This document shows, piece by piece, positions 1-12,236 of a DNA stretch of 64,000 bases (position 1 is the stretch's first letter; each line of letters opens with the position of its first letter). The DNA is taken from the NCBI GenBank assembly GCA_028554795.2, contig CM068838.1:128499428-128563427 (forward strand), read 5' to 3'. The notes under the pieces are model-generated. The model was not told the DNA's origin. It did no database searches and was given only the letters and a program-made list of their open reading frames with translations. Source of the DNA: Sinohyriopsis cumingii. Its lineage: Eukaryota; Mollusca; Bivalvia; Unionida; Unionidae. The position numbers were made by a program, and so were the translations under genes.

Positions 1-147
1 TTCGGTTTTGCCTGAACCGCTAGGTCCAGCAATGAGCATGTTAAAGGGATGGCGAAGATACAAAGCCTCCCAACTGGCACGATCTAAGTGTTCGTCGATG
101 ACTTTGACAGTAGAGGAAGAGGGAGCAGAGACAGCAGAGGTAGCCAT
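1..147 (-). CDS. Packaging ATPase (FtsK/HerA, A32-like), N-terminal part cut by the window edge
   Basis: The minus-strand frame starts at the ATG at 145-147 and runs off the left edge after about 49 residues. It shows a Ser/Ala-rich leader, then a stretch ending in NMLIAGPSGSGKT. This is a textbook Walker A P-loop (GPSGSGKT) preceded by a hydrophobic beta strand. In Polintons and adintoviruses this ATPase is the genome-packaging motor of the virion. A TATA box lies about 50 bases upstream. Only the P-loop part is visible, so the family rests on this motif plus the neighbouring polymerase. Other P-loop ATPases are possible but less likely here. Confidence 0.72.
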   Translation of the reverse strand, partial: MATSAVSAPSSSTVKVIDEHLDRASWEALYLRHPFNMLIAGPSGSGKTE

Positions 148-193
148 GGTGTGAGAAATGTCACTTGTGACACGAAAACAAACAAGACAAGAG

Positions 194-202
194 TTTATAT
201 AC
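194..202 (-). promoter_or_regulatory. TATA box for the ATPase gene
   Basis: On the minus strand the sequence reads GTATATAAACTC about 50 bases before the ATPase start codon. It lies within about 40 bases of the neighbour's last codon, showing how tightly the element is packed. Confidence 0.55.
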
Positions 203-218
203 TTTTTTTCAGAACACG

Positions 219-224
219 TTTATT
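219..224 (-). terminator. Poly(A) signal AATAAA after the small membrane protein gene
   Basis: AATAAA on the minus strand lies 13 bases past the stop of the 237-608 gene and just upstream of the ATPase TATA box. Confidence 0.5.
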
Positions 225-236
225 GAATGTTTTTTT

Positions 237-608
237 TCAAACATGAATACGAAAGACAAAAATACATAAAAGCCAAAGGCTTAAGTACAAGGATAAAAGG
301 CACATGATAACGATGAACGTGGAATAAACACAAGTGTCTGTACAACAATCACATCTTTTGGGTAATGTTCTAACCAGTTCAACAGGGGGTAAGGTCACAC
401 AAGTGTCCTCCCGAAAGGGTCTTTCAGGTCTGTCCACGACAGTCCTGTCCTGGGTGACGGGTTCTTCTGGCACCGTCACTAACACGGGTTGAAAAGTAAC
501 TTTTTTCCTTGAACAACTCTCGTGCATACTGGGCCACTTCTTGGGTCCAAGCCTCAAAATCCCATTCTTTCCAGGCACGGACATCTGTCCAATGGGGATG
601 TAAGTCAC
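237..608 (-). CDS. Small predicted tail-anchored membrane protein of the virus-like element
   Basis: This is a 123-residue frame. The N-terminal two thirds are polar, with several basic and proline-rich patches and a short Cys cluster (CDCCTDTC). The C-terminal 25 or so residues are strongly hydrophobic (FIVIMCLLSLYLSLWLLCIF), which fits a single tail-anchored membrane segment. A poly(A) signal follows directly. It overlaps the gene at 424-747 in another frame. I do not recognise a family. A virion or host-membrane protein is inferred only from the tail. Confidence 0.5.
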   Translation of the reverse strand: MTYIPIGQMSVPGKNGILRLGPKKWPSMHESCSRKKVTFQPVLVTVPEEPVTQDRTVVDRPERPFREDTCVTLPPVELVRTLPKRCDCCTDTCVYSTFIVIMCLLSLYLSLWLLCIFVFRIHV

Positions 609-747
609 AAGCTACACACACATCGTCATACACGTCTTGGGTAGCTAAAAGTTGACGAATCTTTTTTTCCCGTAGAGGTCGAGAAGTATCCAGATGAAAA
701 CGCAAGGCTTTGAGCAAAAGGAGTTTTTCGTGACCATTTAAGGCCAT
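424..747 (-). CDS. Small hypothetical protein of the virus-like element
   Basis: The start is taken at the ATG at 745-747 (MALNGHEKLLLLKALRFH), which sits in a good CCATGG context and overlaps the stop region of the upstream gene. A further upstream in-frame ATG at 831 is less likely because it lies deep inside that neighbour. The product is about 107 residues, mostly charged and helical with several Trp residues, and has a basic C-terminus. No family is recognised. Confidence 0.4.
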   Translation of the reverse strand: MALNGHEKLLLLKALRFHLDTSRPLREKKIRQLLATQDVYDDVCVACDLHPHWTDVRAWKEWDFEAWTQEVAQYARELFKEKSYFSTRVSDGARRTRHPGQDCRGQT

Positions 748-962
748 GGAGGTGGTAAGTACTGATCGTAAAGAGTCCACAAAGAATCGGCTGGTAAACG
801 AAATCCCAAAAAACAAGTCACTAAGACACACACCACTTGTCGTCCCAAATTGAATGGATACAGTTCTTGTAATAATCGATGGTAATGATCCACGGTTTGA
901 ATATGGTCATTGAGTTCCTTCCACGGAATCTGTTGGATGACATACGACATAAGTCGTGGCAT
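738..962 (-). CDS. Small hypothetical protein of the virus-like element
   Basis: This 74-residue frame (starts MPRLMSYVIQQ) contains one hydrophobic stretch (VVCVLVTCFLGF) and a Pro-Trp-rich end. Its end overlaps the next gene's start by a few bases, a stop-start arrangement typical of compact viral genomes. No family is recognised. Confidence 0.35.
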   Translation of the reverse strand: MPRLMSYVIQQIPWKELNDHIQTVDHYHRLLQELYPFNLGRQVVCVLVTCFLGFRLPADSLWTLYDQYLPPPWP

Positions 963-1425
963 AACAGCCTGTTTTTATAGTCTCTTTGTTACGAAAAGAA
1001 TACACGTACTTTCTAGCCAGTGATGTTCGTTTTCCAGTTGGGAATGTAAATCTTGCATACTGTAACCGAAACGTCAGAGTTCGTTTAGGTGTTTCCTCTT
1101 CCGCTAAGTAGATTCCACGTAACAAATGTTGGTAATCCTTTACCTTGTCTTCCTCAATGGGTTGCTCTAGGTGAATCTCGAAGTAACCAAAATGATCAAC
1201 ACGTGAATCATCGGGGGCCTGGAAGTATTGAACAAGGTCTGACCACTGAAACAATTTCTGACGAATCAGTTCTCTTATACCATTCAGGTACCAGTGGTTA
1301 AAAATCTGGTGACGTAACGGATGCAATTGTTCTTTACGTTTCACTTGTATTTTCACCAGCTCTCGGTAAATGCGTTCTCTCAACTCCACAGGCAAGCCCA
1401 AAATGTACTCTTGTAAAGTATCCAT
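907..1425 (-). CDS. F-box-like protein, copy 1 of 3
   Basis: The start is set at the ATG at 1423-1425 (MDTLQEYI), because all three paralogues begin with MDTLQE. The N-terminus reads LPVELRERIYRELVKIQ. It matches the LPxELxxxIyxxL pattern that opens F-box domains, which recruit Skp1 and hence an SCF ubiquitin ligase. The rest (about 140 residues) is an unrecognised, charged, aromatic-rich region that would be the substrate-binding part by analogy. F-box assignment from such a short motif is tentative. The reading frame also extends upstream to 1503, but that extension is not shared with the other copies. Confidence 0.5.
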   Translation of the reverse strand: MDTLQEYILGLPVELRERIYRELVKIQVKRKEQLHPLRHQIFNHWYLNGIRELIRQKLFQWSDLVQYFQAPDDSRVDHFGYFEIHLEQPIEEDKVKDYQHLLRGIYLAEEETPKRTLTFRLQYARFTFPTGKRTSLARKYVYSFRNKETIKTGCYATTYVVCHPTDSVEGTQ

Positions 1426-1660
1426 AAGTATATACACTGTTTTTGGAATCGTTGGGTGGTAGCCAATAGCCTCGTTTAACTTTGTGCCTAATGTAATATC
1501 CACTCATAATCAGTCTTCTTGTACTTTGGAACAGAGCATAATTTAAAAACGGATGAATCACTTTGAGTTTGCGTTTCACTTGTATTTTGATCAGTTCTCG
1601 GTAAATGCGTTCTCTCAACTCCACAGGCAAAGCACGAATGTTCTCTTGTAAAGTATCCAT
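1334..1660 (-). pseudogene. F-box-like protein, copy 2 of 3, probably partial
   Basis: The first 31 residues (MDTLQENIRALPVELRERIY...) are nearly identical to the other two copies. The remainder diverges and overlaps copy 1 in a different frame, so this copy looks partial. The shared N-termini show that the family arose by tandem duplication inside the element. Confidence 0.45.
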
Positions 1661-1672
1661 GAATAGGTCATA

Positions 1673-2128
1673 CTAAATCCTCTTTGGTCTGACACAAGAA
1701 ATGTACTCTTTGCACAAACATGGTTTTACTTCAGTGTCGAATTTAAATCGTTGAGTCACTAATCTACACATTACAATTCGTTCAGAAGTTTCCTCTTTCA
1801 CCAAGTTGACATTGTGTGAAAGATGTTGGTAATTCGTTAACTCTTCCTCTGGAATTCGATGCAGTACGTTTACAATGATGTAACTACAATCGTCCATACC
1901 AAACCAATCCTTTTTAAAACTAGAGGATCGTTGATCAATGTCTGTCCAATGGAACACTTTCAATTGAATCAGTCCTTGTATAGCCTTCAGGTACCAGTGG
2001 TTCAAACACCGGTGACGTATCGGATGCAATTGTTCTTTACGTTTCACTTGTATTTTGACCAGTTCTCGATAAATGCGTTCTCTCAACTCCACAGGCAAAG
2101 CACGAATGTTCTCTTGTAAAGTATCCAT
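1673..2128 (-). CDS. F-box-like protein, copy 3 of 3
   Basis: A 151-residue frame beginning MDTLQENIRALPVELRERIY, then QLHPIRHRCLNHWYLKAIQG, which is closely alignable with copy 1 (QLHPLRHQIFNHWYLNGIRE). The two copies stay alignable through the region that reads TNYQHL here and KDYQHL in copy 1, so they are full-length paralogues. Predicted role: a substrate adaptor steering host SCF ubiquitin ligase (inference). It lies next to the BIR genes, forming a block of likely host-interaction genes between the capsid/packaging side and the polymerase. Confidence 0.52.
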   Translation of the reverse strand: MDTLQENIRALPVELRERIYRELVKIQVKRKEQLHPIRHRCLNHWYLKAIQGLIQLKVFHWTDIDQRSSSFKKDWFGMDDCSYIIVNVLHRIPEEELTNYQHLSHNVNLVKEETSERIVMCRLVTQRFKFDTEVKPCLCKEYISCVRPKRI

Positions 2129-2156
2129 GAACAGATTATTATGGTAAAAAGTTACT

Positions 2157-2882
2157 TCAATGTCTCGGTCCCACTAAAGGTAAGTAATGACAATTCGGTG
2201 ACCATCGAGCATGTTCTACGTAGGCCGAATCTTGCGGTTCCCAGTGGTGAAGTGACACACCGCAACTGAAGCACTTGACTTTATCTCCTTCGCCCAAGTA
2301 GAAAAATCCGGCTCTGGCTAATTCTTCGGGGGTCGGTCCTCCCAGATACTTTGGCCATTTTTCTTTGAACGATTGAAGACGATTTTCAAAGTCGCAGTAT
2401 TCCGACAAACGCACAGGAAACGAATATTCGTTTTTCACAGGTTCGTTTCGATGAGGGTTGGGTGACAGGAACAGGAGTTTGCTCAGGGCTGGATGACATC
2501 CGTAGGGCGGTAGACGTGAAGGTCGACATTCCCCTTTAAACCCGGTAAAATGTCTAAGAGGACGAGCGGCATCGCTTTCGCATCCCTCAGGTTTGACACG
2601 CACAGCATCACTTTCCATGACAGGGGCAGTGAGGCAATGCTTTACGGCATCGCTCAGGTCACAACGTACAGCATCGGTCCCATCGCAAGGCTCACAATCG
2701 CACTCGTCTGCAAACTCCGTTACGCAATTACAATGGTAACCACATGGACAATCGCAGTTTCCTTCCGGACATTTTCCGTCGCAATGCCTGGGTCTTATCC
2801 ATCCAATATTAGTCACACTAGAGGAAGATACAACTTTTTTACAATCCCCAAACTGGAACGATGTCTCTTTCAAAGTATTCAT
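2157..2882 (-). CDS. BIR-domain (IAP-like) protein with Cys-rich N-terminus
   Basis: This 241-residue protein has a single C-terminal BIR zinc domain (about residues 150-238). The ligands read C-x2-C-x16-H-x6-C, within CFSCGVSLHHW and VEHARWSPNC, preceded by the usual RLxSF and ARAGFFYLG elements. The N-terminal third is extremely Cys-rich (CDGKCPEGNCDCPCGYHCNC), followed by repeats of a DAV motif. No RING follows, so it resembles baculovirus and entomopoxvirus single-BIR inhibitors or survivin-like proteins. Likely role: blocking caspases or apoptosis of the infected cell (family knowledge plus inference). A minus-strand TATA box lies about 57 bases upstream. Confidence 0.78.
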   Translation of the reverse strand: MNTLKETSFQFGDCKKVVSSSSVTNIGWIRPRHCDGKCPEGNCDCPCGYHCNCVTEFADECDCEPCDGTDAVRCDLSDAVKHCLTAPVMESDAVRVKPEGCESDAARPLRHFTGFKGECRPSRLPPYGCHPALSKLLFLSPNPHRNEPVKNEYSFPVRLSEYCDFENRLQSFKEKWPKYLGGPTPEELARAGFFYLGEGDKVKCFSCGVSLHHWEPQDSAYVEHARWSPNCHYLPLVGPRH

Positions 2883-2938
2883 CTTGTTCGCTCGGTCTTG
2901 GTAGTCACAATGAACTATCGATCTTGACCATAGCCCCC

Positions 2939-2946
2939 TTTTTATA
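2939..2946 (-). promoter_or_regulatory. TATA box upstream of the Cys-rich BIR gene
   Basis: The minus strand reads TATAAAAA, about 57 bases before the ATG at 2882, and overlaps the end of the neighbouring BIR gene. Confidence 0.45.
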
Positions 2947-3400
2947 CTAGTCGCAATGCAGTCTCCAGCTTGTACATCTTTCCTTTTCTACGTTTTTTAT
3001 GTCTTGTTTCGGAAGGTACCGTCTCTAAGGTACCGTCAACATTGTACCGTAGTGTGATGGGTGGAAAGGCCATAGAAAGGTAAGGGCAGTGCGGAGACCA
3101 TCGAGTATGTTCCAGAATAGCTGAATCTTTATAGATACATAGATCCATTCGTAACTTCAGTCCGCAAGCGAAACACTGTACCTCGTATCCCAATCCTGAC
3201 TCAGGTCCCAAGTAGACAAATCCTGTTCTAGCTAAAACATGCGAAGAAGGTAATCCTTCCCTATCCGTAGGCCATTTCTGAAACGTGTCCAATCGACGGG
3301 CACAATCACAATAGTCAGGTAAGAAAACTGGAAAATGGTAGGGTTTGAACTTGGAGTTTTCATCGGGTTTCTCACTCGATTCATGCTGTGGCGAAGTCAT
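2942..3400 (-). CDS. Second BIR-domain (IAP-like) protein
   Basis: A 152-residue protein that is mostly one BIR domain (about residues 20-115). It has RLDTFQKWP, LARTGFVYLGP, then zinc ligands C-x2-C-x18-H-x6-C within CFACGLKL and LEHTRWSPHC. The loop between the second Cys and the His is two residues longer than in its neighbour. A Lys/Arg-rich tail (RHKKRRKGKMYK) follows and could be a nuclear signal. No RING domain is present. It is a divergent paralogue of the 2157-2882 BIR, and both face the same way next to the polymerase gene. Confidence 0.75.
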   Translation of the reverse strand: MTSPQHESSEKPDENSKFKPYHFPVFLPDYCDCARRLDTFQKWPTDREGLPSSHVLARTGFVYLGPESGLGYEVQCFACGLKLRMDLCIYKDSAILEHTRWSPHCPYLSMAFPPITLRYNVDGTLETVPSETRHKKRRKGKMYKLETALRLV

Positions 3401-3424
3401 CTTTCTGGTGGGGTAACTATCCTC

Positions 3425-6400
3425 TTACAACCAATGTTTTATACCAACGTGTCCATACGGTAAGGTGAAATGATTGGGAAGTCGAACTCGCTTCTGGTAC
3501 ACGATTTGATAAACTTTTTCCAAAGGTCGACTGACGATGTGGTGAGTGGGTAAACGTACAATCTTGTTCGGTTGGTAAGTGGTCACTTTAAAGTTTCCAT
3601 CCTCTCCCGATTGCAAGGCTTCTTTCAATACCCCAAAGTTGACCACTCGACTGGTACGATAATTCAGAGTCAGTCCTTTCACTTTGCACGTCGTGTGCAC
3701 TTCTCCTTGTTTGTCCCGGTATTCGTAGCCGTAATTTTTGGGACCGCCACTGACGAAACTTAGAATCTTGTCGTCGGGATGCTCGTCTGTCCAGGCTCCT
3801 AAACGGTCTCCTTCGATGTTAGGGTGATGTTGAATCGGGTGATGGATGTAAATGCAACTGTCCGTGTCAAAGTACAGGACGCGTTCTTCTAACAGTTCTA
3901 AAGCTTCGTACAATTTTAAGCGAGCATGGGCTGTCACGTAAGCCGCAATGATGACATTTCCAAAAGGGTCGTCTTGTACAAAGTCCAGATCTTCTTCGTA
4001 ATTGACCAAGATTAAATTCTCTCGAACGACGTCCACGTGTTTCATGTATTTGGTTTTGTCGTGAATCATCTGGAAGTAGCGGGAAGGTTCTGTCAAATAT
4101 TCCGTCTTGGGTAAACACGGTCGTTGTGCCATTTTACCCCACAAGCAATTTAACATCACTTTGGCAAACGATCGCCTGCCTTCGTTTTTCTCGATGTGGT
4201 CTAAAGTGATGCCTTCTTGTTCGTAGTATTTCTCTTTGAATTGTATTTGGTCTTCGGGAGTGTGACACCAGGAAGGATAGCCGCTGGCTTCTTGCTTCAG
4301 TTTCAAAAAGGCATCCACGTAGTCGGCGAAAATGCCTTTCTGACTGGGATCACCCTTGTGGTATTGTTGTGTCTTGGGAAAGTGGCAAATTTCGTACACT
4401 TCTAACAGTTGGTATCCCATGTCCAGAGCTTTGAACAATTCTACGCTGACCCAGGTTCCCGTCAAGGCCCGTTCTTCCTGGCTGTGCTGACAAGCTTGGT
4501 CTTGGTTGCACGTTTCGGCACAAGTACGGCACAAGGGAAACATCAGTTTGCCTTGGCAGTGGTGAGGTAAGACGGGATGGTATAGGTTCGTGGGAGGCAA
4601 AACTTTGCACTTGATCAAGCCTTCGTATTGTCGAATGTTTTTCAGGTCGATGTGTTCCGTTAACAATTGCGGGTGCCCTACAGGAAAGCGACAATATTTG
4701 CACACGTAGGGATACAGCGAACACACGTCCAAGTATTTGATTTCTTCTCCTTTCTCTTCGTCGGCTTGCTACAGCAAACAGGTGGCATTGGTCCTTCCTC
4801 CGTACAAACTATCCCTCGGGTTCAGCGGGTCCATGAACTGGTAACTTTCCACGAGGCGTTTAAACTCGGGATCGGTTTTCATACGGTGATCGTACTCGTG
4901 TTCCCACATTTCCACCACTTGGTATCCTTCCTGTTCCAACTTTAGGCGTCGCTGACAAGTGTCCTGGTACAAGTCTTCCATGGTTCGTTGCAAAAACTGA
5001 TTTTTAGTGCCACGGTCAGCGTAACAGACGGGACATCCGTGAAATAAGCAACCGTTAAACTCGTACACGATCTTGGGGTTTTCTAAGTCCCAGCCATCGA
5101 CCGAATACGTTCCGATGGTCTTTTCGCCCCCTCCGTTGCGGGCATGCTGAATCCACTTGTCTTCCTTGTCGCACAAGTAATGTAACCAACGTAGGGCTTT
5201 GACCGAGTATTGACGTTTGACAAAGTGGGTCGTTTGAGGACTGATGACAGCCACGGTGTTTTCAGGCATGAATCGTTGTCGATACACTAAGGAACACGCT
5301 TTGGCAATGGTGCAAGCTTCTTTCAAAGGATCGACCCCTCCGTGTTCCATGAACAGTTCTCGAAATTTTCCACAGCAACGCCGTAAAATGTCCACGTCGG
5401 AACGACAATACTTTAGCATTTCTTCCTGAAAGTCGAAAGGGTCCGAGGCGTGAATCTGGTACCAAGCGTAGAAAGCTTCTCGTTGTTCGGTACGCATGTT
5501 GTCGGGGTCGTAATAGTGAGCCTCAGGTAAATGGGGTAGAACGGCGTGTTGATTGGCTTCCGTATTGAAAAAGTGTGGAAAGTACCCTTTAGCCATTTCT
5601 GTCATTCCAAACGTTTTAGGCATTCGACTCAACGGCATGGCCAAATAGCTCATCGAATCTTTAAACTGTACTTGTCCCACTTGCATGAAAATGATTTTGG
5701 CTCCGTTCAAAGTCACTTTAGGACGCTCGGTGCCTTGTTCCGTATAGTACCTCAAAAGAAACTGTCCATCGTATCCGAAGAAATTGTGAGCCATCACCGT
5801 GGCATGACGATGACAATCTCCGTAACGTTCGATGTCCTCTTGGCTCCACGTCTTGTCGACGGGGTCTAAGACCCATTGGGCAAAATCAGCTAACGTGTTT
5901 GGTCCCCGAAAGATTTTTTCACGCCCTCCGGGTATCTTGCTGCAGTGATGGCAATGACTGAAGATAGGTTCTTGAATGCACTTCTCGCACGCTCGATGAG
6001 CCACACAGAAATTAGGAATGTGAATGCCGGTTTCTTGCATGCATTCGAAATCGAAAAAGATGAAATTGCCTTTCTTCTTGTGACCGTCCTCTTTCTCTGG
6101 TGGGGGTTGGTATTTTTGCACGTAACATTGGTGTTCCAAGTCCACGATGTGGTGACAAATGTGACATTTTTTCTTTCCTGAACATACGTGTGCCTTGGTA
6201 TTATTGGTACGTATGACTTGTTCACACGTAGAGCACAATCTCAGCAGTTGACAAGCGCATTTCTTCTGTGAACCTTGCGTTTTCAGATGTTGTTGGTAAC
6301 AGGTAGGGCTGACAAACGTGCGCAGACAAGTTGAACAAGGCACTGGTTCTTCGCTCAGACAGGGTGAAGAGGCCAAACATCCTGTGCATTTCGATCCACA

Positions 6401-7465
6401 ATGCTTGTGTTGCTCTCGATTGTTATAACCATGGTCACATTTCTCACAGTAATAACTGTATTTCAGGAATCCGGTGATACTGGTAATGGTATCGAAATGT
6501 TCATCGTGATAATAGACATGAATGTATTTTCCGTCCTTAAAGTCTTGGCCTCGAAACAACAGAGGTCCGCGCACTTCTTGAGGGTGCACTTTCAAGGTGT
6601 AGCGTGGAGCTAGGGCATCTTGCAATTTTTGCATCTCAGGAATGCCACAGGGTGTGTCTTTGGACAGGCCAGCTTGTTGCAACAGGAGTTCTGCTTCGTT
6701 TCGTTGTTTGGCTCGATGGGAACGTTGAATAGTGTTCCAGGTTCTTTTCCATTCTACCGTGTCGTTCTTGTCGGCATAGGTTCGTCCCACCACGATGGCA
6801 CGGGCTAAACACATCTGGTCATGAGAGTTGTTAATTCGGACGAGACTCTTTTTGGTGTTGCGAAGGTCGTCCACCAGTAACATCTTTTTGCGTCCAGTTC
6901 CTTGAGGAGGAGAGACGTGGGTCATGTCCAATGTGGCTTTTCCATCGGTGATGTCAAACTGGTCATTAGATTGTTGCACGTGTTGAATCTTGTCCATGAC
7001 TTTGGAAGCGTTCAATTCTGCAGGGGTGCTAAACTCGATCCAAACAGGGGATTTCAAACCGTCGTGTTGTATGGAAAGTCTCAAGCGATCGTCTTCTTTG
7101 GGTTGACATTGCTGCTTGAGTGCAGTGAGCAAAGAATCCCACACCTCGGTGATGAACACTTCTGCTTTCTCTAACGGCACTTCAGCCTTGAAATCTTTAA
7201 ACTTCACTGTGTATTTGTAAGCCGTGGTTCTAAATTTTCTAGAGGAGCGCTTTTCCGTCTCTCGAATGGAATAGTACTTTTCAGGGTTGACTAAGGGTGG
7301 TGAACTTGGTTTAGAGGGTTCGGATTCTGGTTCACTCATGTCCTCTTCAAAATCACTGGCATGAATTTGTGCCAAGATTTCAGCCCTGGTACGAGGCGAT
7401 AGATCACGTTTCTGCCTCTTACTTTCTTCTTCTTCTTTCTTCTCGAATGAATTAGATCGTTTCAT
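3425..7465 (-). pseudogene. Protein-primed family B DNA polymerase of Polinton type
   Basis: This replicates the element. Visible parts, in order: a charged N-terminus, a Cys/His-rich zinc-binding stretch, the 3'-5' exonuclease motifs (FFDFEC; HNFFGYDGQF; YCRSDVDIL), and a TPR-like spacer ending in GGRTNA. The polymerase motifs follow: A (DVCSLYP), B (KVMLNCLWGK, with Trp in place of the usual Tyr) and C (YFDTDS). This order is diagnostic of protein-primed PolB in Polintons and adintoviruses. The combined length of about 1330 residues fits the family. The reading is interrupted about once, so the copy is listed as broken. It is transcribed from a TATA promoter shared head-to-head with the zinc-knuckle gene. 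Confidence 0.85.
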
Positions 7466-7512
7466 CTTGAAAGCAAAAAGTCAAATGACTCAAGTTCAAA
7501 CACCATAAACTA

Positions 7513-7545
7513 CTTTATAGTCATAGCAGACCAGCGTATATAAAA
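7513..7545. promoter_or_regulatory. Divergent promoter pair: polymerase (minus) and zinc-knuckle gene (plus)
   Basis: Two TATA boxes face away from each other about 20 bases apart. TATAAAG on the minus strand (7513-7519) lies about 50 bases before the polymerase ATG. TATATAAAA on the plus strand (7537-7545) lies 55 bases before the ATG at 7600. Confidence 0.6.
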
Positions 7546-7599
7546 GGGTGTGTGTCTTGTCCTTTCACTATTCATTTCACTCTCAAACCGAGCACAACG

Positions 7600-8070
7600 A
7601 TGGAAGAGACTAGACAGATCGAACACTTCATCAGAGCTTTGCGAGGGGTCATTAGAAAATTCTCTTCAGACCAGCCGACGGACTACTCTCCTTCCTTTCG
7701 AGATAAAAGTCAAGATACTTGCTATATCTGTCAGAAGAAAGGGCATTGGTCTTCAGAGTGTCCATACCGTCAAAAAAGAAAAAAAACAGGGGATAAAAAA
7801 GACAAAAGTCAAGATACCTGTTATTATTGTAAAGAAAAAGGACATTGGTCTCCAGATTGCCCAAAAAAGAAACAAGAGGAGTCAGAAGAAAAGAGGGATT
7901 CTTCAGAAGAAGAAAGGGATTCTTTGAAAGAAGAGAGGGATTATTCTGAGGAAGAAAGCAGACAGGTGAAGAAAAAGAAACAGGAGAAGAAAAGAAGAAG
8001 GGAAGAAAGTGAGGAGGAAGAAGAGGAAAAGAGTGTGACGGTGAAAAAATTCAAAAAACCGAGAGACTAA
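7600..8070 (+). CDS. Double CCHC zinc-knuckle protein with long acidic/lysine tail
   Basis: The start is taken at the ATG at 7600 (ACGATGG) because the TATA box at 7537 predicts transcription from about 7566; an in-frame ATG at 7552 would lie upstream of that. The 156-residue product has a short helical N-terminus and two CCHC knuckles (CYICQKKGHWSSEC and CYYCKEKGHWSPDC, each C-x2-C-x4-H-x4-C). A strongly charged Glu/Lys/Arg tail of about 75 residues follows. Zinc knuckles of this kind bind single-stranded nucleic acid. Retroviral Gag and CNBP-like proteins are the best-known carriers, and I know of no standard Polinton gene like it. It may be a core, packaging or replication accessory protein (inference). 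Confidence 0.68.
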   Translation: MEETRQIEHFIRALRGVIRKFSSDQPTDYSPSFRDKSQDTCYICQKKGHWSSECPYRQKRKKTGDKKDKSQDTCYYCKEKGHWSPDCPKKKQEESEEKRDSSEEERDSLKEERDYSEEESRQVKKKKQEKKRRREESEEEEEEKSVTVKKFKKPRD

Positions 8071-8155
8071 ACAAGGAGACAGAAGAAGTCAATGAACTTT
8101 TTATTAAAGTGTTGTGTTGTGAATTGTGAATTGGATTGTAAAAAATGGAGAAAAG

Positions 8156-8161
8156 AATAAA
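8156..8161 (+). terminator. Poly(A) signal AATAAA of the zinc-knuckle gene
   Basis: AATAAA lies 86 bases after the stop codon at 8070, within a short AT-rich 3' UTR. Confidence 0.5.
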
Positions 8162-8299
8162 TGAATGATATAAGGTAAGTGTCTTTGAGTTTTGATTTTA
8201 AAATAAGGACGTACACTCACGCACTCATACACAGACACGTACTATAAGGGTAAAATGGGTGGGGTTTATTTTTTGAGTTATTGGCAAATTGAAATTGTA

Positions 8300-8341
8300 T
8301 TTCTTTTCGAGAAATGTGGGTGGCCCTGAAAAGGGCCTTTT
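8300..8341 (-). terminator. Histone-type mRNA 3' stem-loop and downstream element, minus-strand gene
   Basis: On the minus strand, 28 bases past the stop of the 8365-8949 gene, the perfect 16-base stem-loop GGCCCTTTTCAGGGCC (8322-8337) occurs. It is preceded by AAA and followed by ACCCA. About 12 bases further lies a purine-rich CGAAAAGAAA, placed like the histone downstream element that pairs with U7 snRNA. This is the canonical 3' end of metazoan replication-dependent histone mRNAs, which are cleaved without polyadenylation. Confidence 0.78.
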
Positions 8342-8364
8342 TTCTTCATGGTGAAGGGGTGAGT

Positions 8365-8949
8365 TTAAGCAATCAATTTTAACTGCCTTAAGCCTTTGCC
8401 ACGGCCAAGGCCTACTTCTGGACTGCGTAATGTTGATGATGATGATAATGATTGGGTTGAAATCACTAAGGGTGGTACGGTAGGTTTAGTCACAGGGTTG
8501 ACGTGTTTGGCTCGGGAAGGTCGTATTCTCTTCGGTCGTGATAAAGAAGTCTGATACATTTGTTTCAGACTTCTTAACTCCGCTAAAATGTCCAACAGTA
8601 CCGTGACCGTTTGATTTTCACCCTCTTGTTTCTTTGCTGCTACTTCTTCTTGCTGTTGTCGCTGTTGTTTTTTTCTTACCTCTTCTTCTTGTTGCTGTTG
8701 CTGTAGGAGAAAATCCTGTTCCGCTTCCTTTTGTCGTTGTATAAATTTCTCCAATTCTTCTTTCTGTCTCTGTCTAAAATTCTCCACTTGCGGTAATGAA
8801 GAAGGTAACGAAGGTTCCGGAACAAATTCTTGCGAGGAGAGAAAATCCACAAAATCCCAATTCACCTCTTCTGAAAGTAAGTCCGAGTTCCCTTGGGCAG
8901 TCTCTCCTGCTGGTGCACCCCAATGGATCGTTTTCTGAGTTTCCGTCAT
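8365..8949 (-). CDS. Gln/Glu-rich coiled-coil protein with basic C-terminus
   Basis: This 194-residue protein has an acidic N-terminus (about 1-55) and a long predicted coiled coil (about 57-110) dominated by Gln, Glu, Lys and Arg, including a QQQQQ run. A Leu-rich segment (VTVLLDILAELRSL) comes next, followed by a basic patch (RPKRIRPSRAKH). A Ser/Pro-rich tail ends in GRGKGLRQLKLIA. No histone fold is apparent and I recognise no family. The gene has its own TATA box, is divergent from the 9169-9399 gene, and ends in a histone-type stem-loop, so S-phase-linked expression is likely (inference). A DNA-binding core or scaffold protein is possible. Confidence 0.62.
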   Translation of the reverse strand: MTETQKTIHWGAPAGETAQGNSDLLSEEVNWDFVDFLSSQEFVPEPSLPSSLPQVENFRQRQKEELEKFIQRQKEAEQDFLLQQQQQEEEVRKKQQRQQQEEVAAKKQEGENQTVTVLLDILAELRSLKQMYQTSLSRPKRIRPSRAKHVNPVTKPTVPPLVISTQSLSSSSTLRSPEVGLGRGKGLRQLKLIA

Positions 8950-8997
8950 GTTGAATCACTGTCGCATAGATTGACTGCACACAAGCGCTAGCGAATC

Positions 8998-9124
8998 TAT
9001 ATAGACTACGTGACGTCACAGACTGCACTCTTACGATTGGATGCGGGCTGACTGAATTCTGTAACGCGTGTTCGGATTGGTGAATGAACTCAATCCGTTT
9101 CAATCCTTCCTGTCCCTATAAATA
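8998..9124. promoter_or_regulatory. Bidirectional promoter with two TATA boxes, CRE and inverted CCAAT boxes
   Basis: A minus-strand TATA (CTATATA, 8998-9004) and a plus-strand TATA (TATAAATA, 9117-9124) bracket a CRE palindrome TGACGTCA (9011-9018) and two ATTGG (inverted CCAAT) boxes (9036-9040 and 9076-9080). The layout resembles divergent histone H2A/H2B promoters. Confidence 0.62.
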
Positions 9125-9168
9125 AGCGCCGTTCACTGCATTGATTCACCTATTCTCGGAGCCTCAAC

Positions 9169-9399
9169 ATGTGGACAGACGTTGAATCTTCAACCCTTGT
9201 GTCAACAATGATGTTCAGGACGGACATGCTCATGTATGTCCGATCCAAGTGGACCGTTGTCCACAGGACCAACAGCAGCCTGTGGATAAGAAGAGTCTAT
9301 ATAGAGAGACAAGGTTGCCTCAAGAGGACTCTGATGTATGGCCCTGCTGTAAGACGAAGTTTGAGGAAAAGAAGATGTCGCAAATGCCCTCTATGTTAA
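9169..9399 (+). CDS. Small basic protein with histone-type mRNA 3' end
   Basis: This 76-residue frame starts at the ATG at 9169, 45 bases after a good TATA box. The protein is rich in Arg and Met, with a C-terminus reading RRSLRKRRCRKCPLC, a basic Cys-containing tail that would suit DNA or RNA binding. No histone fold or known family is recognised; small basic core peptides such as adenovirus mu are only a loose analogy. A perfect histone-type stem-loop begins 22 bases after the stop codon. The combination of TATA box, frame and stem-loop supports a real gene despite its size. Confidence 0.55.
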   Translation: MWTDVESSTLVSTMMFRTDMLMYVRSKWTVVHRTNSSLWIRRVYIERQGCLKRTLMYGPAVRRSLRKRRCRKCPLC

Positions 9400-9417
9400 G
9401 GGCATATTAACATAAAC

Positions 9418-9460
9418 CAAAGGCCCTTTTCAGGGCCAGCCATATTTCTCGAAAAGAGAT
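9418..9460 (+). terminator. Histone-type mRNA 3' stem-loop and downstream element, plus-strand gene
   Basis: CCAAA, then GGCCCTTTTCAGGGCC (9422-9437), then AGCCA, and a purine-rich GAAAAGAGA (9451-9459) 13 bases on. The stem-loop core is identical to the one at 8322-8337 in inverted orientation. The similarity extends through the flanks (about 8285-8340 against 9418-9478), so the two ends share ancestry. Confidence 0.78.
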
Positions 9461-9520
9461 AGTCTTTGAATTGCCTACCCCTTTTTTAAAAATTTTTTTT
9501 TAAAAAAAAGAAAAAAAATC

Positions 9521-9787
9521 CCATGTTCCATTCCCCTTGTCCCTAAACAAGCCCAAACTCTATTCCCATGTTAAATTCCCCTTGTACGTAAAGTGACCCA
9601 CGATTTATCACCATGTTAATTCCCCTTGTACGTAGAGTGACCCACGATTTATCGCCATGTTAATTCCCCTTGTACGTAAAGTGCCCCACGATTTTTCGCC
9701 ATGTTAAATTTCCATTGTACGTAAAGTGCCCCAAGGGGGTCTGTAATGCTAATTTCCATTGTACGTAAAGTGCCCCCCTTCACTACT
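9521..9787. repeat. 44-bp tandem repeats at the inferred right terminus of the virus-like element
   Basis: About five to six units of roughly 44 bases, starting CCATGTTAATTCCCCTTG at 9566, 9611, 9655 and 9699, with more degenerate units on both sides. They sit between an A/T tract and the inferred terminus at 9787. They are best read as part of the terminal inverted repeat; the left copy is outside the window. Confidence 0.55.
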
Positions 9788-9817
9788 CATATCCGGTTTG
9801 TTTATTTTAAACTTCCG

Positions 9818-9818
<1 letters not shown>

Positions 9819-9915
<97 letters not shown>

Positions 9916-10543
9916 GTAAAGAATACAATTCATACAATTCATATAGCGAATAACAATCCTTTCAAGTGCACTAGATCCAGCAAGAGATCACGTGTGTCAG
10001 GGATTGATTAAGATAAATGCAATAAACTGACAACGAACAGTGCGAATCTAGTATCTAGCTAGCCTGAGTGCTTGTGACCCTTCAGTGAGTCTTTTCCAAA
10101 GGCAAATGCAAAACATAGACAAGACAAAGAAATAAAACAGAAAAACAGTTATGTTTGCGAAACTTTACATGGCTGTTTCTACAGGAATTTAACCTTTGAA
10201 CTATATTATGTGTCAACTAGTTTATTTCAGCTTGTTGCTGATACTGGAATATATTTGTACTGATCTAGAAATTGATGAGCCATAACGACAGCTATTATTT
10301 TATGTAAATTTATGTAAGCGCAGATTATATTCAGGATATTTCATTGTTATAGTAGTCATAGGCTATCAAGCAAAGTTTCGCAAACATAACCTTTTTTTTC
10401 TTTCTTATTTTTTGTTTGTTTGTTTCTTGTTTTATTTGTTTGTCTTGTGTATATTTTGTATTTGCCTTTGAAAAAGACTCATTAAAGGGTCGAAAGAACT
10501 CAGGCAAGCTAGATACTAGTTTTGCACTGTTCTTTGTCAGTTT

Positions 10544-10634
<91 letters not shown>
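9819..10634. mobile_element. Fold-back (inverted-repeat) element framed by (TA)n arrays
   Basis: Perfect (TA)n tracts at 9819-9910 and 10548-10634 enclose two inverted arms. The left arm, about 10018-10175, begins CAATAAACTGACAACGAACA. The right arm, about 10370-10547, reads nearly the same on the minus strand. The unique centre is about 200 bases. A second, one-armed copy of the left half lies at 49679-50072, also next to a (TA)n tract. It has no coding capacity and is probably a non-autonomous element with TA preference. Confidence 0.55.
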
Positions 10635-10637
<3 letters not shown>

Positions 10638-11380
10638 ATATAAATTAAGATCGACATATAGGATAAACGCTCGGTATGGACAGGATAAATACAGGATAAA
10701 CAAGCACACTTATTCACAAAATTCACACGGTTCAGAAATAAATGTCCAAGTGATATGCCACAGTGCTTATTGCTTAACTTACAGTAGTTACCGTGTGCAT
10801 TTTAAGTATTTCGTAGCCTTATTTTAGTGCAAACCTTACTGATTCGGAGTTCTTTAGAAGCTTATTTATGTGACTGTGGCGCTTGATTCAAGCATCTCTG
10901 ATATATTCCAATTGAATTTCTTACATTTCCTGTTTGCCTCAGTATTTACCTACTTCAAACATTTATTGTGACATGCAGCAAAAAATGTAAAATCAAACGT
11001 AGTGAAGCTGAGGCGAAAGGAGCAAGATTTTAAAAAATAATATACAGGCATAACATCATACCTGAAGTGTCGTACTGCAGTGAATTTCAGCGTTAGGTGC
11101 TCCACCCACATAAAGCCTTAAAGGTATCATCGACTCGATTATTGAGTCCTTGGTTTTGACACATTGAGCATCTAGTCCTACCTGTAAGACCCGACGCTGA
11201 TATTTATGTTTAACACCTTAACAAAATCAAAATGTGCTATGTCTTACATGTAGGACTAATTGAGCATCTACATTCACCTTTTCAGAAATATACAACTTTC
11301 AGTGTTGTACCTTTAATTTCTTTTCAATCATTAGTTAGTTTAGCGAAGCGTGATATAAGATGACAGCGATATATTCCCTC
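10635..11380. other. Non-coding stretch, nothing recognised
   Basis: AT-rich sequence without convincing reading frames, RNA genes or terminal repeats. Confidence 0.5.
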
Positions 11381-11385
11381 GTACT

Positions 11386-12236
11386 CTTGGGGTGGAATTG
11401 TCTAGAGACCTCACTTGGAAAAGGCACATAGACAAGATAGTAAAAAAAGGGAACAGTAACCTTGGTTTCCTGCGCCACAACCTCCAAATCAACAATAAAG
11501 AAGTAAAAAGTGAGGCATATTTCACTCTGGTTCGACCAGGTCTTGAGTATTCCTCGACTGTGTAGAACCCACATAGTAAAGATCTAACAAATAAGATAGA
11601 GATGGTTCAGAGGAGAGCGGCTAGGTTTACCACAAATAAATATCGTAACACTAGCAGTGTCAGTGCAGTGCTCAACCATCTCCAGTGGGAATCACTCAAA
11701 TCCAGGCGAACCAAGGCCCAGCTAACCATGATGCACAAGATTGCGAACAACCTAGTGGACATACCAGCAGACAAATACCTGACCCTGGCATATAGCCAAA
11801 CTAGGGCAAGCCACAGGAAAAAGTTCCAATTAAAGTCAGCATCGACAAATTGTTTCAAGTTCAGCTTCTTCCCATGTACAATAGGGACTTGGAACAAATT
11901 ACCATCAATAATTGCAGAAGCTCCTGAGTTGGTATCTCACAAGCAGGAGCTTTCCAAAATGACATTCTAATGAACTAGTCAGCTACAAGTAAGACCTAGT
12001 GATTCTCAGGGCTATGCCGGTTGAGGTTCCATATCTCATTGCCGCTACGGTAGTCGGATTGGTCTGAGTATGAAGGGACGAAAACATACACTGACACACT
12101 TTGACTTATTTCTGCCTTTCCTATCATTACTCTTCTGACTGTCCTATCACTTCCATCTTTACTTTATCTTTGACCACGTACCACCCGTTGCTTAATAGTC
12201 AAGTGTGACTGTGTCAACGTATTTATAGATAGATAG
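11386..12236 (+). pseudogene. CR1-like LINE, 3' end fragment of the reverse transcriptase ORF
   Basis: The frame from 11386 reads LGVELSRDLTWKRHIDKIV, then ARPGLEY-like LVRPGLEYSSTV, MVQRRAARFTTNKYRNTSSV and HLQWESLKSRR. It ends GTWNKLPSIIAEAPELVS with a stop at 11968. These are the hallmark C-terminal motifs of CR1/L2-type reverse transcriptase ORFs. A TAG at 11563-11565 replaces the usual Trp of the VWNPH motif. Everything upstream of the RT C-terminus is missing, so this is a 5'-truncated dead copy. About 265 bases of 3' UTR follow, ending in a short (TAGA)n tail near 12236. Confidence 0.75.

Follow-up and report, generated by a model that had tools for sequence, protein, structure and literature searches.

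Non-histone genes at the ends of a Polinton-like element of the bivalve Sinohyriopsis cumingii appear to carry host-type histone pre-mRNA 3' ends

The window analysed here is a stretch of 64,000 nucleotides from the bivalve Sinohyriopsis cumingii (assembly GCA_028554795.2, contig CM068838.1, positions 128,499,428 to 128,563,427 of the forward strand). It holds a copy of a probable Polinton-like element that continues into DNA fetched from left of the window (L031). Two genes of this element, designated A and B, are divergently oriented, and each is followed by a hairpin resembling those of replication-dependent histone mRNAs and then by a purine-rich block (Table 1). The original prediction, made from the letters of the window, placed the 16-mer GGCCCTTTTCAGGGCC once on each strand, 22 to 28 bases past a stop codon, with flanks of (A)AAA and ACCCA/AGCCA and a GAAAAGARA block 12 to 13 bases downstream, and each of these particulars is borne out. 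An exact search finds the 16-mer at exactly these two places in the 64 kb, 22 nt behind the stop of gene A and 27 nt behind that of gene B; the flanking letters are as described; and GAAAAGA starts 13 nt downstream of the stem at both hairpins. Two exact copies occurred in none of 100 dinucleotide shuffles. A looser histone pattern, tolerant of one mismatch, finds the same two hairpins only, and is unconvincing on its own because 14 of 100 shuffles also reach two matches. Both hairpins exceed the gathering score of the Rfam Histone3 model RF00032, 34 bits. A scan for the shape of the hairpin returned four in L031 plus window positions 1-12000 and none in positions 12001-64000, with a mean of 0.07 and a maximum of two in mononucleotide shuffles of L031 plus window positions 1-9600. 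These shuffle tests, of the window and of L031 with part of the window, reject the idea that the exact hairpins arose by chance.

The histone genes of the host itself were compared. A genome search with PF00125, in which the best 150 of 662 candidates were scored, gave at least 150 histone matches, nearly all in repeats roughly 8.3 kb long; at 13.10 Mb of G000 C14 and on many small contigs the tandem units measure about 8.27 and 8.29 kb. We read the 3' ends of two genes, at two loci each, whose encoded proteins end in IRGERA and in KAVTKYTSSK and which we take, by these C-termini, to be H3 and H2B. The H3 end reads AAACGGCCCTTTTTAGGGCCACACAAATGTCTAGAAAAGAG, with the hairpin GGCCCTTTTTAGGGCC (35.9 bits by RF00032), and the H2B end reads AAACGGCCCTTTTCAGGGCCATACATATCTCTAGAAAAGAT, with a hairpin (38.2 bits) identical to the 16-mer of the element. 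Host H2B and H3 both carry AGAAAAGA in the same register as the block of the element, AAAAGA lying 14 nt past the stem in each. The idea that the histone-end labels rest on Rfam alone is rejected by these host 3' ends.

Hairpins of this kind recur elsewhere in the element. The window copy has two at its left-hand side, both AGCCCTTTTCAGGGCT on the minus strand, at L031:1175-1190 (29.3 bits) behind p129, an open reading frame (ORF) of 129 aa, and at L031:321-336 (31.0 bits) behind a small ORF, E, that in this copy meets an early stop well ahead of its hairpin. Both are closed by an A-U pair and score below the RF00032 cut-off (E values 9.9e-6 and 4.2e-5). A search of the 2.9-Gb genome with RF00032 gave at least 75 scored matches (75 of 589,472 first-look candidates scored); of the 75 listed, 55 had their DNA fetched, and all 55 adjoin gene A, B, C or D of the element. 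None of the 75 places falls within the histone repeats among the PF00125 matches listed, a further sign of an incomplete RF00032 list. Across the fetched copies, six gene types (A, B, C, D, p129 and E) have a hairpin behind them. At p129 one is present in eight of the eight loci where this gene was found, exact in six, with the loop TTTA in L050 and two stem changes in L042. Five loci (L032, L045, L051, L052 and L054) have a second hairpin of the A-U type between p129 and the terminal gene, which is C or D and has a hairpin beginning GGC, and in L016 the hairpins of B, A and C all lie inside 3 kb. Eleven of the 14 left-hand hairpins in alignment A4 carry CTCTAGAAAAGA, letter-identical to host H2B. 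The units, judged by eye, resemble descendants of one cassette consisting of stem-loop, spacer, block and then a TTTCAATTTGCC-like stretch. The exact 16-mer is absent within 300 nt of 18 other ORFs checked in the window copy.

As a guard against ascertainment, conservation was measured on partners, that is, on hairpins of a locus other than the one through which that locus was found. In every one of the 36 partners (11 of A, 24 of B, one of C), altered B hairpins included, AAAAGA starts 14 nt past the end of the stem, and the spacing from stem to AAAAG is constant at 14 in all 70 perfect hairpins counted; the distance from stop to stem among perfect hairpins is variable, ranging from 13 to 31 nt. 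Exact hairpins were found in 11 of 11 A partners, in the one C partner and in 14 of 24 B partners. Pairwise comparison of the 11 A partners gives differences of 0.133 at first, 0.054 at second and 0.311 at third codon positions, and no difference at all across the hairpin, the five bases that precede its stem, and GAAAAGAGA; the variable parts are the stretch from stop to hairpin (0.199), the five bases after the stem (0.204), the spacer (0.130) and the sequence beyond (0.188). With the window copy added, giving 12 A copies, 23 of 23 columns of hairpin plus GAAAAGA are invariant, versus 38 of the 69 other columns of the 3' region (hypergeometric P = 1.3e-5, with columns not independent across the tree). 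A divergence profile of 23 copies, which includes hairpins by which loci were found, has a trough of 0.035 at window positions 9418-9447, flanked by 0.178 and 0.142. The purine blocks of B (0.018) and p129 (0) are better kept than neighbouring coding DNA. Among 27 distinct hairpin regions, picked to represent classes and including two host genes rather than sampled at random, 14 are closed by G-C and 13 by A-U, with no closing pair broken, and 98.1% of cells pair. The change at the closing pair is compensatory.

Divergence along the element is itself uneven. At the 23 loci with both genes (aligned over window positions 8248-9860), it rises from about 6% in the promoter between A and B to 9-26% in gene A, and is higher in the terminal repeat; third codon positions in the same 23 elements differ by 0.317 in A versus 0.055 in B. 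The right arm seems far older than the remainder of the element, as an exchange between lineages would leave it. For B (23 partners) the differences at codon positions 1, 2 and 3 are 0.054, 0.054 and 0.066, and for p129 (eight loci) 0.063, 0.040 and 0.063. Since the three positions differ nearly equally, the copies of B and p129 seem to have drifted with little constraint since insertion.

None of the proteins of A, B, C, D and p129 has a Pfam histone match. A PDB sequence search returned nothing for gene A and one weak, unrelated match for gene B (E 0.024), in agreement, for these two, with the earlier remark that neither protein looks like a histone. The AlphaFold model of A is too poor to judge (pLDDT 49), and that of B is one long helix predicted with low confidence. 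The protein collection yields 20 relatives of gene B, at 59-98% identity, on contigs of 925 to 2,286 nt. One of these, P0053, and the 65%-identical relative of gene A are both on contigs of 1455 nt, which suggests that the two genes lie side by side there as well. Another, P0055, lacks the usual stop, and the codons of its tail fit GGCCCNTTTCAGGGCC followed by 14 nt and AAAAGA, though not the exact 16-mer; none of 20,000 random peptides fitted a pattern of this type, in which one stem position was freed after the tail was seen. At locus L036 a second B, 55% identical, has a decayed hairpin at the same place. IMG/VR yielded no relatives to searches with gene B, the polymerase, the polymerase alignment A1 or the B alignment A2, and two patterns did not find the exact hairpin there.

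The comparison with host H3 and H2B, the fixed spacing, the invariance in the diverged A copies, the covarying closing pair and, indirectly, the tail of P0055 together support the central proposal of the original prediction, that complete histone pre-mRNA 3' ends stand on non-histone genes of a Polinton-like element. As a reading of the sequences this is well supported. We consider it very probable, as a joint claim, that the element represents a Polinton/adintovirus-like virus integrated in multiple copies and that small accessory genes at both of its ends (A and B at the right; p129, E and C or D at the left) terminate in functional host-type histone pre-mRNA 3' ends.

Several observations weigh against this interpretation. 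The loci were found through their hairpins, for which the sampling of partners is only a partial correction. Four of the 14 left-hand hairpins are spaced 15 nt from the block, not 14, and the A hairpin of L002, a locus outside the counts, is perfect and followed by an A-run without the purine block. Ten of 24 B partners are altered, and the divergence profile that dips at the A hairpin shows no such dip over the B hairpin (0.090 at 8308-8337). At B the hairpin differs by 0.057 versus 0.054-0.066 for the coding sequence (23 partners), and at p129 by 0.047 versus 0.040-0.063 for neighbouring coding DNA (eight loci); neither is better kept than its surroundings. When 33 A copies are compared, those found by their hairpins included, the purine block differs by 0.055 and the hairpin by 0.008. 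The covariation is that of one pair and probably reflects one event, and two of five covariation measures, those for pairs changed on both sides and for further pair types, fall within the shuffles (384 and 500 of 500). Finally, a host gene for U7 small nuclear RNA was not identified with RF00066, which gave no match and was silent on controls too; a U7 pattern search did no better than its reversed control (88 versus 120 matches), and none of the 24 candidates inspected among those 88 was convincing.

The assignment of the element follows from features shared with Polintons/Mavericks and adintoviruses: a type-B polymerase, an rve integrase with chromodomain, and terminal repeats. The integrase lies at L031:6061-7203 (PF00665, E 2.4e-14; chromodomain PF00385, E 1.8e-7). 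A match to the adenain-type (adenovirus) protease is weak and below the cut-off (PF00770, E 0.0084). L031 further holds several ORFs placed like capsid and core genes, which are putative assignments. Two ORFs of 435 and 135 aa in the places expected for capsid and ATPase genes have no informative Pfam or PHROG match, nor has the 435-aa one a PDB match; by their places they are a putative double jelly-roll capsid protein and a putative packaging ATPase. Long terminal inverted repeats were recognised by comparing right-end DNA of four copies with left-end DNA from five other loci; the matching pieces are as long as 408 nt and 67-96% identical. Named relatives of the polymerase occur in Saccostrea, Crassostrea virginica and Mercenaria, with weaker ones in the coral Paramuricea. 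The conserved boxes between A and B (Table 1) are presumably promoter elements.

Table 1. Features of the element within the window (strand relative to the stretch as read; RF00032 scores in bits)
Feature	Positions	Strand	Remarks
Gene A, 76 aa, basic C-terminus	9169..9399	+	no Pfam or PDB sequence match; one 65%-identical relative in protein collection
Histone-type stem-loop of gene A	9422..9437	+	6-bp stem, UUUC loop; 22 nt past gene A stop; RF00032 9417-9462, 35.6 bits
Purine block GAAAAGAGA, putative U7-pairing element (histone downstream element, HDE) of gene A	9451..9459	+	13 nt past stem
Gene B, 194 aa	8365..8949	-	long helix 53-136 predicted, low-confidence model (pLDDT 68, pTM 0.26)
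Histone-type stem-loop of gene B	8322..8337	-	27 nt past gene B stop; RF00032 8298-8342, 41.2 bits
Purine block GAAAAGAAA, putative HDE of gene B	8300..8308	-	13 nt past stem
Region between A and B, read as shared divergent promoter	8950..9168	.	conserved blocks: TGACGTCA, two GATTGG, TATAAATA
Right terminal repeat	9414..9787	+	matched to left end of copy L051; starts 8 nt before A stem-loop; holds 44-bp tandem repeats
CCHC zinc-knuckle ORF	7552..8070	+	no stem-loop; AATAAA 86 nt past stop
Type-B DNA polymerase (DNA_pol_B_2), N-terminal part, interrupted in window copy	4769..7465	-	PF03175
DNA polymerase, C-terminal part, separate ORF in window copy	3425..4732	-	PF03175
BIR (inhibitor-of-apoptosis) domain ORF	2942..3400	-	no stem-loop
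BIR (inhibitor-of-apoptosis) domain ORF	2157..2882	-	no stem-loop

Some further observations concern the element and its surroundings. Three tandem copies of a gene starting MDTLQE(N/Y)I..LPVELRERIYREL lie at window positions 907-1503, 1334-1660 and 1673-2128; they are a possible accessory family of the element, and the two of the three that were scanned have no Pfam match. The 44-bp tandem repeats of the right terminal repeat, of the TTCCCCTTGTACGTAAAGTGACCC type, occupy 9524-9776 and are followed by a long TA run. In copy L033, at 3026-4063, the protease ORF and the gene D ORF are fused into one open frame of 332 codons. An ORF at window positions 11602-11970 seems to resemble the C-terminal end of the reverse transcriptase protein of a long interspersed nuclear element.

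AATAAA or ATTAAA is found within 300 nt behind three of the 18 other ORFs, namely the protease-like ORF (116 nt), a 123-aa ORF (13 nt) and the CCHC gene (33 and 86 nt), and the core genes presumably use poly(A). Gene B of the window copy also has AATAAA, at 95 and 260 nt past its stop, and some histone genes are known to yield transcripts polyadenylated further on. On a first alternative, SLBP might bind the hairpin for translation or localisation while transcripts are cleaved and polyadenylated further downstream, in at least some tissues, an arrangement for which there is a parallel in the histone 3' UTRs (untranslated regions) of Caenorhabditis elegans, reported in PMC1924863 to bear a hairpin plus AATAAA. 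We hold this to be unlikely: gene A of the window copy has neither signal within 300 nt, several other B copies show an A-run at the place of AATAAA (by eye, uncounted), and the U7-type block and its spacing are maintained.

A second alternative starts from position. At its inner edge the right terminal repeat contains the A hairpin, and the C and D hairpins are placed likewise in their repeats; a palindrome acting at the DNA level in replication, packaging or integration at the termini, its likeness to histone ends secondary, could be kept alike by homogenisation of the repeats. That explanation is very unlikely in our judgement, given that the hairpins of B, p129 and E are internal to the element, that hairpins stand in sense orientation behind genes and in the register of host H2B and H3, and that in gene A the constancy of the stem is matched by the loop, the five pre-stem bases and the downstream block but not by the spacer. 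Less probable still is a functionless passenger, derived from an ancient capture of a histone 3' end and spread by duplication inside the element, which the cassette-like resemblance of the units, the altered B partners and the lack of excess conservation at the B and p129 hairpins would favour, and against which stand the 23 of 23 positions invariant among A copies despite a third-position difference of about 31%, and the 36 of 36 equal spacings, altered B hairpins included.

For functional histone-type 3' ends, the likeness to host genes suggests that the element borrows the histone-mRNA machinery of the host. Host SLBP would bind the hairpin, the GAAAAGA block would be recognised through base pairing by the U7 small nuclear ribonucleoprotein (snRNP), and cleavage between the two would fall to CPSF73. 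The resulting mRNAs would be capped, would lack poly(A), would be translated with SLBP, and would be gone at the end of S phase. The stability of histone-type mRNAs is limited to S phase, and the mRNAs of these genes are probably S-phase-limited. We infer the use of SLBP and U7, the lack of poly(A) and the S-phase timing from the known pathway, in which SLBP acts in both processing and translation of histone mRNA (PMC1924863) and the core of the mouse HDE is AAAGAG (PMC7026596). The parts of the element match this pathway at each step. The gain to the element would be expression of its terminal genes while the nucleus replicates DNA. It is also plausible that clean 3' ends close the outermost genes before transcription exits the element; since the hairpins of A and of C or D lie at the inner edges of the terminal repeats, the outermost genes would be closed off at both ends.

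We lean, somewhat beyond even chances, towards a fuller model in which genes are classed by their 3' ends. Terminal accessory genes would fall under the host S-phase programme, with SLBP-dependent processing, translation and decay at the end of S phase, and core genes would be polyadenylated; the signal would go back to a single capture from a host histone gene and would since have been duplicated within the element and split into stem types closed by G-C and by A-U, both keeping the U7 register.

One of the closest known systems is the 3' end of metazoan replication-dependent histone genes (RF00032; SLBP, U7 snRNP), with which the element shares the 6-bp stem, the UUUC loop, the A-rich 5' flank, the ACCCA-type 3' flank and an AAAAGA purine block in the register of host H2B and H3. 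Unlike those ends, its signals follow non-histone genes that belong to a mobile viral element, and the left-hand hairpins of the window copy are A-U closed and, at 29.3 and 31.0 bits, under the cut-off. A literature search, with most subscription journals outside its coverage, found no paper joining the histone stem-loop with Polintons, and the term "stem-loop" was not found in the accessible text of two papers on Polintons and adintoviruses (PMC11071296, PMC11071308). In related viruses Histone3 has already been listed: PMC12220804 reports six histone 3' UTR stem-loops at Rfam thresholds among 8,300 genomes of polinton-like viruses and virophages, and none in 1,107 cryptophyte ones, in the available portion without comment on their place, a downstream element, host comparison or function. 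The view that such a timing device is unknown from Polintons thus holds in part, the hairpins being on record in polinton-like viruses and virophages (PMC12220804), while no paper was found that describes such processing. The Histone3 label has also been attached to a viral RNA in SARS-CoV-2 (PMC7786107), unlike the present case at 14.7 bits, far under the gathering score, within the part of an RNA virus that encodes nsp3, and with no downstream element reported in the part available. Adomaviruses, with their "Histoid" genes (PMC11071296, as far as its accessible text goes), are likewise DNA viruses that co-opt part of the histone system; there it is the protein that was taken, and in the element an RNA-processing signal without a recognisable histone protein. 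Within the same coverage, no paper was found in which hairpin, downstream element and a comparison with the host are treated together for viral genes.

Histone-type 3' ends are regarded as a hallmark of replication-dependent histone genes. If the proposed reading is true, the terminal genes of this element would provide a natural test of what such an end confers by itself, whether cell-cycle timing, SLBP-dependent translation or rapid decay, and would offer many natural variants of the SLBP and U7 sites of a single host, the A-U closing pair among them. They would also represent a viral route by which gene expression is coupled with S phase without poly(A).

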